Source of the DNA: Lepisosteus oculatus
Taxonomy: Eukaryota > Chordata > Actinopteri > Semionotiformes > Lepisosteidae
NCBI RefSeq assembly: GCF_040954835.1
Contig: NC_090697.1
Location: 26,901,001-26,965,000, forward strand
Length of the DNA: 64,000 bases
Reading direction: 5' to 3'
The stretch's first letter is position 1. Each line of letters opens with the position of its first letter. The translations under genes and the position numbers were made by a program. The notes beneath the pieces were generated by a model. That model was given only the letters and a program-made list of their open reading frames with translations. It ran no database searches and had not been told where the DNA came from. Below, in pieces: positions 6,701 through 52,660 of this stretch.

Positions 6701-8645
6701 ATATATATACTTACATTTTAAGTAAGTTCTGTGAAATTGTTAAGATAGACATGTTGAAGCCTCATCTCACATACCAATACACCTGAGATCGAGTTGCCAC
6801 AGGTAGTTTTAAGATGTATTTTTTTAATGTCAGTCCAATGTTTGCTCGAGCACAAGAGCTGCTTGTTGTTATAAATGGTAACTTGTCAAAGCAAAGCTCC
6901 CTTCACAGGAAAGACTGACACTGTGCCAGGGTCATTGTTATTTTATTGATTTAACGACATTCTTCCTTACCTGTACCTATACTGTAGATCCTTGTAAGTC
7001 TGTTTAAGAGACATTTTTAATATTGTGAGTCACCCTAAAGAAAGGTTAGTCTAAAAAAAGTAATAAAAAGCAACAGCTCCCAGATGTGATTCATGGAAAG
7101 GGGTGTAGACATATCTTCCTGCCTAGACAGAAGATTGCTTTCTATCCACATTTTGTGACAAATCTTACAAGCTTTTGCTGCCCTGGAGTGTGGAGTGTGC
7201 CTTAGTGTTCAACTAAACCATCTCTGTACATGAAAAAAATGCAATTCTTGATTCCTAAAGATCTTTTACTTTATTTAGAAACAGCAAAAGTGTTATTTAG
7301 TATTCATTCAGGTCCAGCCTGATTCTCATCTTACTTGGAAGACAAGACAAAAGACCTCTTCTGGAGACAATGGGGAACAAATACGCTGTTCTATAGAAGA
7401 ATAGACACTTTGCAGGTTGCCAGTCTTCTTGACTGTGCACACCTGTTGAGTATAACCTTACAGCATTGTTTCCCTAGAAATAAATGCTTGGTGCTATAAA
7501 AGAGAGCTTCACCTAATTTCTAAGACTGGGCTCTCACGACAGAGGGCTGGCCCTTTCTGTTCAGCCTAGAAAATTCCGGAACGTGTGGAACTGGGCGGGG
7601 CGGTTTGCACTGACTTGCTCCAAGATTGAGTTAAGGTACAGTGTGTAGGTACTGTGCTCCAAAAGGAAAGACTGCAAGCTTTTGGGCAACTTCAAGCTGA
7701 GCAGCATTGTGGAAGACTGCTTGATGGCTCTGAGCCTATAACTGGAAAGTTGTACCCTTGGACTCAGATTGCTCCAGTGAATAAATGGGTATAAATGTCA
7801 GACACTTTGGATAAAAGGCTCACTCCAAGTAAATTAGAGTACTGATAATAATTAAGCCAAGGCGACTTTTGTCTCTTGTTCTATCTGGGGCTTTAGTATG
7901 GCAGAGGCAGAAATTAATGGGGATGGCCAAGCAAGTAGCCATGGTTCTCCAGTAAAAAAACAATCAACAGAAATAGGGAACTATAAATTATACTGAAGAA
8001 ATGGCTCCAAGGTGTGCAGTAATGTATGTTATATGCTGAATTTACTGTTTTACACATACATACACTGGTAAAATTAGAATTACATATGAATGGTTTGCTG
8101 AGGGGCATAGAATTAGCATACGTACTATACAAGCAACTTAGGCAGTCATACAGCACCTTGCTAGAGTATTGACCCTCTTTCAATGAAGTCCTCTTCTGTT
8201 GAATTACCAGGGATGTCTACACATTTTCTTTAAATTGAATATTACTGTACAGTATATTCTGACCTTGATTGCTCAAACCAGATACTTTTATGGGTGAAAA
8301 TAATATGTTATAAGATGCGTGTGAAATCAGTCGAAAGTAGCTGGCCAAAGTTTAATGACATTCTGCCTGAAGCGCAGAACAAATCGATCCCAAGAGTGAT
8401 TCAGTGAAAGGCCGGAAAGCATCCCAAAGGGTTTCATCAAAGAAGAAAATCTGAAACAAGAGGAAGCACAAGAAAGCACCAGAAGCAGCAAAAATGAACA
8501 TGATCCAGTTATAAAAGGAGTGTAACTGCAAACCCAGCCGAGGAGGAATATTAGAAAGGCCAAGAGAGAGACGGAAAGGAGCATTGCAATGGAAGCAAAA
8601 GTAAATCATAAAGGGTTTTGTCAGGTATGACAACATCAGTAAAGG
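3761..8645. other. Long AT-rich stretch, no gene recognised
   Basis: About 4.9 kb without an exon, RNA gene or repeat family that I can name. It includes small homopolymer and TA-rich tracts (for example near 4720 and 6700). Frames up to 113 aa occur but none resembles a known protein. Confidence 0.4.
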
Positions 8646-25300: not shown

Positions 25301-25383
25301 GACACCCTAAGAAGACTCCAGTCAAAATGTTGTTTTCTTTCTTCTCTTTTCATGGAATAAACCTATTACTTGTTCCTTTTATG
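25301..25383 (+). mobile_element. Penelope-type repeat unit, diverged copy
   Basis: It matches the order of the 52.4 kb foldback unit: ACACC, a CTAAGAAGACTCC block, TCAAAATGTTG, then ATGGAATAAACCTATTACTT ending at TGTTCC. The hammerhead-like core is mutated (CTGAAGA to CTAAGA; GAAAC to AAAAT). Confidence 0.6.

Positions 25384-41654: not shown

Positions 41655-41701
<47 letters not shown>
41651..41701. repeat. (TTTA)n microsatellite
   Basis: About twelve TTTA units. Read on the minus strand it supplies serial AATAAA hexamers about 1.2 kb past the KCNK16 stop, so it could double as a poly(A) region. Confidence 0.85.
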
Positions 41702-41702
<1 letters not shown>

Positions 41703-41835
41703 TAGTTCAGGTGAGTAGCTGCATCAGCATGCGTAGGCTGAAAAGGAACAAGTAATAGGTTTATTCCATGCTGAAAAAAAGAAGATTAGAGAACACAACG
41801 TTTTGGCCATGGAGCCTTCTTCAGGTGTGTTATTT
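41703..41835 (-). mobile_element. Penelope-type repeat unit, single copy
   Basis: On the minus strand it reads ACACCTGAAGAAGGCTCC, ... AACGTTGTGTTCTCT, TTTTTTTCAGCATGGAATAA, CTATTACTTGTTCC and a tail containing CCTACGCATGCTGATGCAGC. It is the same unit as each arm of the foldback at 52.4 kb. The core G preceding AAAC is mutated to A. Confidence 0.65.
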
Positions 41836-42874
41836 AATTATTGGCTATGATAGGGACCTCATTGTTCCTGAAGGTTTTGTTCCTGACAGCACCCAGGAAT
41901 ATACACACAACATTGTTTAAAAAGGCTGTGATTTAAGAGAACAAAAAAGCAACACATATTTTGCCTTGACATTACTCAATTAAATTCCGCAGTCTGTTCT
42001 TTGAGCGATTTTCTTTGAGCACTAGTTTATGGCGCAGTTCAAATGTTTTCTTTTTGTTTTCTGTGGACTTATTATTGGAATATGTTAACTCAGCTAAGCA
42101 GCTCTGTGTCAGTTACTAAACTGCCTTAAGGTTTGTTAAAGTACATTAAGAAATGACTTTGTGAAAACAGCAGTAAATTTGCTCATAACTAGGTCATTAA
42201 GAAATGATCAGCTTCAAAAGGAAATGACGAAAACCACCTGAGCCTGAAACAAACCAAACTTTCATGTACTCATGAGGCTGTACTGTGTAAAAGAATTAGA
42301 AAACTTTAGCACTGTCTGCGGGGCAGTCCCAGCGCTGTGTGGCTGTGTGTGCTGGGGTCAATAACGGCTGAATTTGCACAAGGCTGTCTCCTGCTCCTCT
42401 GCTGAAGACTTGCTCACAGCAGATGAAACCCTGGCACAGCAGCTCAGCTGTCAGAGTGCTTGGCAGTGCTCGGTATACAGGTGTGGCTCTGTCATAACGA
42501 ACCCTGTGTATGAAAAAAGACATAACAAACTTGTAAATGGAACCTTGACAGTTCTAAACGTATCGTGTGTTGTATGCACATCGTACTTTACAGAGGTACA
42601 ACATTTCTGGATATATGAGCTTCCTCAAGAAGCTGAGAAGAGACCCGCAAGGCCATCGCATCAGAGAGCCCAGTGGCAGCCATTTTCTCCTCCACTTCAT
42701 GACAGCAGGGGTGTCATGGCTCACCCACGGATCAGCACCATGAGTCCTGTGGTGGGGACCTTCCATTGCTCCGGGTATAGCCGCTGGGGCTCCAGTCTAC
42801 TCCCCCCCATCGACCCGTTCTGGAGCTCACGTAGGCGCACAGCCCCCACAGGGTCCTGCCTGCTGGGCCGCCCC
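41836..42874. other. KCNK16-KCNK17 spacer / probable KCNK16 3' UTR
   Basis: No further coding exon is recognised. The 215-aa plus-strand frame that overlaps the region is antisense to KCNK16 exon 5 and is not supported. Confidence 0.5.
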
Positions 42875-43098: not shown

Positions 43099-46000
43099 CT
43101 GAAGATCAAAGCCAATTTGGAATCAAGAGTGACAATTAAACCTTTTTTAAAAAAAAACATATGATCTCCTCTTTATCACCCTATAAGCACGTGAACCTTT
43201 CAGCCTGAGCAAGGTGCCGCCTTAGCTCTTTGTCAGTATGGGCCCGGGCCCTTGCTCAACTGCTGACAATTTCATGTGTGGGCACACAAAGTTTCCACTT
43301 TTTTAATTATTTAGCAAATAGTTTTACTTCACAGATTTGAAGATGTGGGCCATCCCACATCTTCAAATCATTCTCATTTGGTTTCTCATAGATTTTGTAG
43401 AGAGCTCCTCAGCTGTCTGGTTCATTAAAGATGCATGTGACTTAGCAGTAGACATGTGGTCACACATGAACCAGAGGGTACAAGTGGAAAGTGCTTGGAG
43501 CTGTATTTAAATCTGAAAACAGGAGACACTTCTTTACACAGAAGGTAGTGGGAGTGTGGAACAAGCTGCCAACCATGCTGTTGAAGTCTATATCCTGGTT
43601 TCTTTCAAGTGTCAGCTGGATGAGATATTTCGGTCAGTAATAATATCAGTGCTCACCTTCCATCTTCAAGCCTTGACTCTTGACTTCTGCACCCTGATCT
43701 TGTGTCACCCCACTCCCATCCCTTCCTGTCCATGAACTCGATTGTGACTTGTACTGTCACAATTGCCAGCTGGCAAGGAGGCTGGAGTGTTTGTTCATCC
43801 TTTAGTCTTTATGACTTTCGTCTTAGTGTTTAATGCTGACAAATGGGAAGGACCCCTCTGCTCATCTAGCCCATAAAGAAAGGCACCCCTCCACGATCAG
43901 GTCATACCTACGACATAATCCCCAAAGCCAATGGTGCTGAGAGTGATGAAGGCGTAGTAAAATCCCTCTCCATAACTCCAGCCTTCCACATAGCTGAATA
44001 TGACGGGGGGGAAGACCAGGAACAGCAGGGTACCCATCACCAGGAACGAAGACATGGCCAGGACCTTCACTGTCTGCTGGGGAAGCAGGGACAATCGCAC
44101 AAGCCTGCAATGTGAGTGTCGAGACTACCCGCTCCAGCCTGAAGAAGCCGACAGAGAGAAGCAGAGAAAGGGGAACTCCAGGACAGCGGGTGCGGCGCGT
44201 ACCTCGTGGCGGCCTGCGGTGAGCACGCTCCTCTCCAGGCGGCCCAGGTGAGCGGTCAGGCCCTTGCCCAGCTGATTGAGGAATGCCAGGTTGAGGGGAA
44301 TCCCACACAGGGCGTAGAACACACAGAACACCTGGCCTGACACCGTGCTAGGGGACAGGTTCCCATAACCTGTAACGACAACGTCAGGCGAGCCCAGTCA
44401 GACAGACCTCTCAGAAGACCATGAGACCGGGCACAGACAGGAGGAGCCATTCGACCCATCAAGCCCATTTGGTGGTTAGCAACTAACTGATCTGAGGACC
44501 TCATCCAGCCTTTTCTGTAAGAAGTCAGGGTATTGGCTTCAACTTTGTGGCTGGGCAGCATGTTCCACACTCCCACAACCCTTTGTGTAAAGAAGTGCCT
44601 CTTGCTCTCAGTTTTAACTGCAGTCCAACGTAGTTTCCACCTGTGCCGTCTGGTTGTGTGTCTCAGTACTGTGTGCTGACACCTCCCAGGGCTGGAAAAG
44701 TAAGCCCACCTTCAGAACTCTTATAGCCTCATAGAAAACAAGCATACTGTATGTTTTCCTGTCAATCTCTAAGAGGTTAAATCAAGAGCCCCCTCTTGTA
44801 TCTAATGTAAAAAAAAATCTTTAAAGTAAACATTATTGTACCGAGATGTATATTACCCTTACCTTGGCAACAGGTGTTCCACTGCAAGCATATTACTGTA
44901 TTTATTTTTTTAATCCGCTTGACTAATTCTTTTGAAAAACAAACAGACAGGCGCAGGACTCTGTCACACAACACATGTCCAGATGTATAGCAGGCTCACC
45001 AAAGACTTCAGACTGCAATTCAAAAGATGGATCTGTCTTCTTAGTATAAAATGAGGTAAAACTCACATTACATTATGACATCACTTTCAATAACTGCTTA
45101 TCCACTTCAGGGTCCACAGACACACACTCACACCAGAGCCAATTTTCTCAGAAGCCAATTCACATACCAGCATGACTTTGGACTGTGCAAGAAAACTGAA
45201 GCAACCAGAAAAAAACAAGATGCAAGAATATATCTCAATCAATTTGAGGTCCATTTCAGTTAAGCCTGATAGTAAAATCCCTATTTTTCAGTTACACAAA
45301 AACTTGAGTCTCTTGCCTACAGTATGTTTTCTCATTATTTCTCACTCTGTTGTCACACAGGGGCTCCCTCCTCCCGCCAAGGAAGATTTCCCATCAGGCC
45401 ACAGGGGACAAACCCCCAGGCCCAGCTGATCACTCGGCATCAAGCCCGCCACACGGAGGAGTGTGGAGGAGCGAGCGAGCACAGCAGCCCTGTTCTTTAA
45501 TGGAGACCATGAAGACATCCTGTCTGGTGTATTGGTATGGGGCCTGAAAAATATATCTAACCAAGACAAAAAAAAAAATACCCATGGAACAAGTCGAGAG
45601 TCGAGAGAGTCCAGCAGATTTCAGTGTGAGAAAAAGTGTTCTGCGTTACTGTGCTTCAGAACATGCAGTTCGGAATAACATGGATATGCGGAATAACAGG
45701 CTAATCTGCTTCCTGAATGCCCAGCGCAGCAAAGGCAGGGGCTGCTGGGACTGCAGACTTGCCTATGGTGGTGATGACTGTCCCAGCAAAGAAGAAGGAG
45801 CTGCTGAAGTCCCAGTTGCTGGGGTTGGTGGAATTCCCTGATGGATTCACTCCCTTCTCCCAGGCATCCAGAATGACCTGGTCAGGACAGAGCAGACACA
45901 GGCAGGGGAATTAGCACCGGGTGGTACTTCTCCAGCTTCTGCTGAAATTCGAAATGTCCTCAACAAAGCTTTCTCCAACGTGTTGCCAATTGGTTTATGA

Positions 46001-52440: not shown

Positions 52441-52660
52441 AAGGAACAAGTAATAGGTTAATTCCATGCTGAAAAAAAGAAGAAAGAGAACACAACGTTT
52501 CGGCCCTGGAGCCTTCTTCAGGTGTGGAACCACACCTGAAGAAAGCTCCACGGCCGAAACGTTGTGTTCTCTTTCTTCTTTTTTTCAGCATGGAATAAAC
52601 CTACTACTTGTTCCTTTGCAGCCTACGCATGCTGACGCAGCTACCCATCTGAAATACTAC
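52441..52660. mobile_element. Penelope-type units in head-to-head inverted pair (foldback)
   Basis: Positions 52441-52527 (minus-strand unit) and 52530-52616 (plus-strand unit) are near-perfect inverted repeats around a 2-nt centre (AGGTGTGG-AA-CCACACCT). The right unit continues to about 52656 with CAGCCTACGCATGCTGACGC. Each unit holds ACAC-CTGAAGA ... GAAAC-GTT-GTGT, the layout of a hammerhead ribozyme with a minimal stem III (52490-52525 minus; 52532-52567 plus). The GGC/GCC stem II is intact in the left unit and has one mismatch in the right. Tails of this type are known from Penelope-like retroelements. Family assignment is inference. Confidence 0.75.

Follow-up and report, generated by a model that had tools for sequence, protein, structure and literature searches.

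Head-to-head foldbacks in the Lepisosteus oculatus genome as probable two-sided insertions of a GIY-YIG Penelope-like element

A short foldback in a 64,000-nucleotide stretch of Lepisosteus oculatus DNA (the window; source genome of 1.2 Gb in 813 contigs) is best explained as the insertion of a 5'-truncated GIY-YIG Penelope-like element (PLE) in which both cut strands primed reverse transcription and the two cDNAs were then end-joined, a reading to which we assign a probability of roughly 70%. The foldback is one of many in this genome, which combine a PLE affiliation with tails, target duplications, diverse junctions and element-like filler. What this genome adds to earlier work on PLEs is a near-obligate asymmetry of the tail over many insertions.

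The features of the locus are collected in Table 1. The inverted pair (52441-52527 and 52530-52616) consists of arms of 87 nt that are 95% complementary and separated by 2 nt, with the mirror of the left arm extending 2 nt into the target duplication (to 52441). The insertion proper, 52443-52657, measures 215 nt and is bounded at either end by the 10-nt duplication TACAAAATAA, and its right arm exceeds the left by 41 nt, corresponding to the tail. Among ungapped hairpins with a spacer under 30, the foldback scored 71, the best value in the window; the remainder of the window reached 16, and the best hairpins of 20 first-order Markov simulations of 64 kb each scored 9-13. These values rule out a chance hairpin and confirm the initial annotation in its description of a near-perfect foldback of ~87 nt around a 2-nt centre. 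A microRNA precursor was also considered and rejected, as every one of the 13 Rfam hits in the foldback fell under the gathering score of its family.

Table 1. Coordinates of the foldback, its hammerhead-like motifs and the other copies of the unit in the window
Feature	Position	Strand	Remarks
Target site duplication, left copy TACAAAATAA	52433..52442	.	10 nt
Left arm, untailed unit	52443..52527	-	ends at inner 3' site (...CTTGTTCC)
Left-arm hammerhead-like motif	52490..52525	-	stem I ACAC/GTGT, CTGAAGA, extra A, GGC/GCC, GAAAC, GTT; predicted cut between 52494 and 52493
Junction nucleotides AA separating both heads	52528..52529	.	
Right arm, tailed unit	52530..52657	+	
Right-arm hammerhead-like motif	52532..52567	+	stem II weakened, G to A (AGC/GCC); predicted cut between 52563 and 52564
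Tail, right arm only	52617..52657	+	41 nt
Target site duplication, right copy TACAAAATAA	52658..52667	.	10 nt
Second copy, single tailed unit	41704..41829	-	flanks TTATTTAAT (41695-41703, 41830-41838)
Third copy, single untailed unit	25302..25379	+	~81% identical to consensus, core changed

The unit that makes up each arm is abundant in the genome, where its 42-nt core was found at 6,994 places with up to 2 mismatches (control, 0). Head-to-head matches numbered 746, 393 and 60 in three disjoint gap classes, 1,199 altogether, with none in the reversed-pattern control of any class; these are pattern counts from exact 12-nt anchors and gaps to 92 nt, for which the first ~50 of each list were inspected, and their distribution over the gap classes indicates that the majority of arms traverse the whole hammerhead-like motif. 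A junction pattern returned 864 matches (control, 0). Of 100 unit places listed from the 6,994, at least 43 sit in head-to-head pairs, none in a tail-to-tail pair and 10 within one tandem segment, and none has a same-strand neighbour within 400 bp. No pairing was observed for the other 57, so that some insertions are probably one-sided. The analyses below rest on 90 pairs that we read, comprising a selected set of 40 (the window locus and 39 foldbacks found by their similarity to it) and a set of 50 taken in genomic order from contig C1, for which 10-nt arms had to match exactly and the gap could not exceed 30, with no further criteria (the C1 set).

A perfect target duplication of 11-17 nt flanks 73 of the 90 pairs. 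Such duplications were present in 36/40 loci of the selected set, and 37/50 loci of the C1 set have a duplication of at least 11 nt, a length that re-paired flanks reached in 2 of 1,958 cases only. In the remaining 17 foldbacks, among them the window locus with its 10 nt, no duplication reaches 11 nt. All 73 target duplications differ from one another. The profile of these 73 sites is AT-rich with roughly dyad-symmetric edges, as would be expected of a symmetric cutter.

The junctions between the heads were likewise diverse. When the two strands were equated, 32 distinct junctions were counted among the 40 loci of the selected set and 44 among the 50 of the C1 set (46/50 with strands kept separate). 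The junction was unique to its locus in 29/40 and 42/50 cases, respectively, and was common to another locus of the same set in 11/40 and 8/50. The 11 junction-sharing loci of the selected set are joins without an inserted base and lie in 11 different target sequences; one junction that does carry filler is common to two loci (L083 and L094), again in different target sequences. Taken together, the distinct duplications and diverse junctions indicate that the insertions are independent and that head-to-head joins were made repeatedly. Where filler of at least 6 nt was present (38 cases), its longest match to the unit covered on average 65% of its length, compared with 49% for shuffled filler, in a test that used 86 of the 90 loci (four were dropped because their junction was not recognised) and left out upstream element sequence; some of the remaining filler resembles that upstream sequence. 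Overlaps of 1-6 nt were found in 25 of the 50 junctions listed from the 0-30 gap class, a count inflated by the self-complementary AACGTT. Overlaps and filler of this kind are the expected outcome of end joining with templated filler; the joining enzyme might be Pol theta.

Of the unit places on C1 not assigned to pairs, the first 20 were read. Twelve of these copies continue upstream with a common sequence, 10 of them across most of 230 nt, and two (L127 and L131) carry a partial second inverted arm. A fixed 5' template end at stem I of the hammerhead-like motif was dropped as a candidate in view of the 12 continuing copies. Two longer copies (L135 and L136), for which ~6 kb of upstream sequence was taken, have 594 nt in common at 99% identity, ending in the unit and its tail. 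Just upstream of the unit in both copies, tblastn detected matches to the C-terminal GIY-YIG part of a 795-aa frame from an element found in arrays elsewhere in the genome (E 4e-5 and 5e-7, respectively), and positions 5798-6115 of L136 matched the Pfam GIY-YIG model with 22.8 bits, barely above the cut-off of 22.6. The window locus itself is truncated and without the domain. The presence of a GIY-YIG domain upstream of the unit in the longer copies identifies the unit as the pseudo-LTR (pLTR) end of a GIY-YIG PLE. Further, the foldbacks present the PLE features of inverted pLTR copies, a tail on one of them and a target duplication, so that the link to PLEs proposed in the initial annotation was borne out by the domain in the two longer copies, the tail, the duplication and the inverted layout. 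The endonuclease parts of the unit's element and of the array element are only 28% identical, and the two elements therefore represent different families. No reverse transcriptase (RT) was seen in the unit-bearing copies that we read, none of which extends to an RT region.

The array element occurs head to tail with a period of ~4.5 kb. It contains the motif YLDD, which we take to be of RT type; no RT match was obtained for the element in Pfam or among PDB sequences. Arrays were noted at G000 C28:15.03-15.09 Mb, on C74, C283 and C18, and at C4:28.43 Mb (L110-L113), some of them near contig ends, with frames of 795-809 aa preceded by an overlapping second frame of ~580-605 aa; within the four stretches that were read, identity between copies is 99.8-100%. 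A separate tandem segment of 6.44 kb on C1 (L114, G000 C1:6,500,597-6,566,340) holds one unit per repeat, and we set it aside as a candidate parent element after the single stretch read yielded no PLE frame. No relatives were found in non-eukaryote collections, which were searched with one pattern in genome contigs, two in viral contigs and one distant BLAST against phages.

Of the 50 loci of the C1 set, 49 have a single arm extending to the outer 3' site, none has two such arms and one has none. The partner arm in these 49 stops at the inner site 39 times and short of it 10 times; counted over the set, untailed arms stop at 77-97 in 40 cases (at 85-91 in 31) and before 75 in 11. Similarly, 39/40 loci of the selected set have exactly one tail, although the query used to collect that set was itself one-tailed. 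The sole pair among the 90 with both arms tailed is L013 (G000 C2:41427858-41428580), which has no clear target duplication. In published work, two adjacent RT start sites were mapped on the RNA of one PLE, and the stretch separating them was taken to be the tail (PMC11167929); a tail on one of the inverted pLTRs was noted in a study of rotifer Penelope (PMC3846280). Because the start site did not differ between the two strands when an anole PLE was assayed in vitro (PMC11167929), that study alone does not predict the one-tail rule, which is a property that an active enzyme could be examined for.

The insertion pathway that we propose would begin with the element's endonuclease cutting AT-rich DNA with a stagger of ~14 nt. 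Each freed 3' end would then prime reverse transcription of element RNA; initiation at the outer start site by one end would leave the 41-nt tail, and initiation at the inner site by the other would give the untailed arm. Both cDNAs would extend 5'-ward, usually past the hammerhead-like motif, before stopping; their ends would be joined head to head, with short overlaps or with filler copied from the element, and gap filling would duplicate the target. We infer the order of these events, the repair pathway and the priming of both cDNAs by target DNA. The in vitro work on the anole PLE offers a precedent, in that both strands were cut and extended there and two internal start sites defined the tail (PMC11167929). 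Arms of the same locus had 35 non-consensus letters in common, against 11.7 ± 3.1 when arms were re-paired (maximum 23 in 1,000 permutations), and differed at 116 positions against 182 ± 8; in the selected set there were 3 arm-shared variants against 0.5 ± 0.67 (maximum 3 in 2,000 permutations). Such variants would fit one common RNA source for both arms, and would also fit gene conversion or an arm templated by its partner.

The arm-shared variants would also be produced by self-priming (snap-back), in which the end of a cDNA or antisense RNA loops back on itself and serves as primer for a second copy, giving a head-to-head repeat, as was proposed from palindromes at inverted junctions in the rotifer Penelope study (PMC3846280). 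A snapped-back copy should, however, traverse the tail and run into target DNA, whereas most second arms stop at the inner start and a single tailed arm is the rule in 49/50 loci of the C1 set; the junctions, moreover, are varied, and many contain filler or overlap. We consider self-priming unlikely on these grounds, and the 90 pairs read favour two-sided priming followed by end joining.

A different explanation was offered in the initial annotation, namely that the locus is a head-to-head pair of dimer-type ribozymes, perhaps silenced by its own hairpin or processed as double-stranded RNA. The hammerhead core reads CUGANGA ... GAAA ... UH, and stem II of the textbook ribozyme begins directly after core A9, from which the unit departs by an extra A. 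We searched with a minimal descriptor (stem I of at least 4 bp, CTGANGA, 0-1 extra nt, stem II of at least 3 bp, GAAA, U, H), which matched one place on the two strands of the 64 kb, namely the left-arm motif on the minus strand, and none in 60 simulated windows. The right arm does not match because AGC in place of GGC puts an A-C mismatch into stem II; of the GGC/GCC helix described for each arm, therefore, the left-arm copy stands and the right-arm copy does not. Across the family, all 12 core letters are kept in 73/80 arms of one set and in 78/96 spanning arms of another, and the extra A between core and stem II was present in 80/80 arms.

The array element carries a motif of the same kind, CGC-CTGAAGA-A-GACC-CAGGCA-GGTC-GAAAC-GTC-GCG, ~100 nt upstream of its first long frame. 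It was present in 8 of 16 stretches scanned, using a looser descriptor (stem I of 3 bp or more, as many as 2 extra nt) and without a chance control. The array element and the unit are identical in the core, the extra A and the two-pair palindrome ACGU that forms stem III, and their other stems differ in a compensating way, CGC/GCG and GACC/GGTC in the former against CAC/GTG and GGC/GCC in the latter, that is, two double changes between two families. This recurrence of the annotated layout, extra A included, with compensated stems is the strongest support for the motif as a real structure. A covariance-model search, which the initial annotation had named as a test that could refute it, went against that annotation: Rfam hammerhead models had no match at gathering score in the window, and with E relaxed to 10 they matched neither the foldback nor three loci with consensus-like arms (L063, L083 and L093). 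The motif accordingly falls outside the hammerheads that Rfam recognises. Its appearance is that of a minimal hammerhead of the PLE type, but we do not file it as a proven one; cleavage after GUU is a prediction. Of the arms listed from the 0-30 gap class, 17/100 end at the predicted cut (offset 0), a figure confounded by the anchor and by the ACAC/GTGT overlap, and we make no claim for a ribozyme-cleaved template.

In favour of silenced ribozyme pairs, the predicted transcript is a long hairpin (-145 kcal/mol), and a stem III of two palindromic pairs would need a partner motif, so that the motif may be expected to act as a dimer. Because the arms are inverted, however, a transcript of either strand contains one sense motif and one antisense copy, which lends no support to the suggestion that the hairpin hides two cores. 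Nor is there support for a locked-off locus: many members of the family have the head-to-head layout, which recurs genome-wide with varied junctions and is best read as an insertion footprint. We therefore regard a silenced or dsRNA-processed ribozyme pair as improbable. The motif belongs to the pseudo-LTR of the element, and the foldback can be explained without it. Finally, an inherited foldback element (a MITE-like DNA transposon copied whole) would account for inverted arms between target duplications, a high copy number and the junctions that some loci share, including the filler-bearing one, but is very improbable given that most junctions are locus-unique, that the 73 duplications all differ and vary in length from 11 to 17 nt, that the two arms end at different places and that longer copies bear a retroelement endonuclease domain.

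Several parts of this picture are already published: head-to-head PLE pLTRs, tails, target duplications, PLE hammerheads and two-strand priming in vitro. In Adineta vaga Pen2a and other Penelope elements (PMC3846280), head-to-head is the commonest inverted layout, as it is here. One inverted pLTR of the elements described there carries a 3'-terminal tail of 31 bp, and target duplications are 8-10 bp, whereas here the tail is 41 nt and duplications are mostly 13-16 nt; the same study stresses palindromes at the junction, whereas junctions here are diverse, and the present insertions differ further in that the whole insertion is ~215 nt, without coding sequence and present in large numbers. PAc, a Poseidon-type PLE of Anolis carolinensis, agrees with the present element in its two internal RT starts, AT-rich targets and a hammerhead at the start of the repeat (PMC11167929); that work concerns one element in vitro, with joined head-to-head products absent from its main text, while the evidence here is genomic. 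The minimal type I PLE hammerhead (PMC6155905, PMC7229834) is open at stem I with conserved core letters and practically no helix III, like the motif here, which differs by its unpaired A between core and stem II and by the lack of an Rfam match at E up to 10. Animal retrozymes (PMC7229834) are short non-coding repeats with type I hammerheads in PLE-holding animals and are alike in these respects; the head-to-tail repeats typical of retrozymes were seen at none of the 100 listed unit places of the 6,994, where same-strand neighbours within 400 bp numbered 0. In the open-licence literature we found no description of short PLE foldbacks of the head-to-head kind that were this numerous and had their junctions recorded insertion by insertion. 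New here are the scale and the per-insertion evidence, in that ~1,000 short pairs can each be read for the start and the end of either cDNA, for the join between them and for the target duplication. We tentatively extend this, at somewhat less than even odds, to PLEs in general, which may integrate through a paired asymmetric complex with obligate outer and inner starts, priming from both DNA ends and host end joining. If so, the many short foldbacks would be a ready-made record of integration, with the repair step legible at each junction.

Additional features were noted in the window. A host exon at 43897-44124 (minus strand) matches Pfam Ion_trans_2, and frames near it resemble, with no Pfam match, what we take to be a two-pore potassium channel. 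The third copy of the unit is old and has no clear target duplication. The second copy has a 9-nt duplication and a change of core G12 to A; it adjoins the end of a TTTA microsatellite (41656-41703), the source of its target duplication. The start of the unit, CACACCTGAAG, and the end of the consensus tail, CACCTGAA, form an 8-nt repeat at both termini (window 52530-52657 and consensus), which might bear on the choice of template. Directly after the hammerhead-like motif, at 52567-52588 on the plus strand and in its mirror, a pyrimidine tract followed by CAG (TTCTCTTTCTTCTTTTTTTCAG) resembles a 3' splice site.
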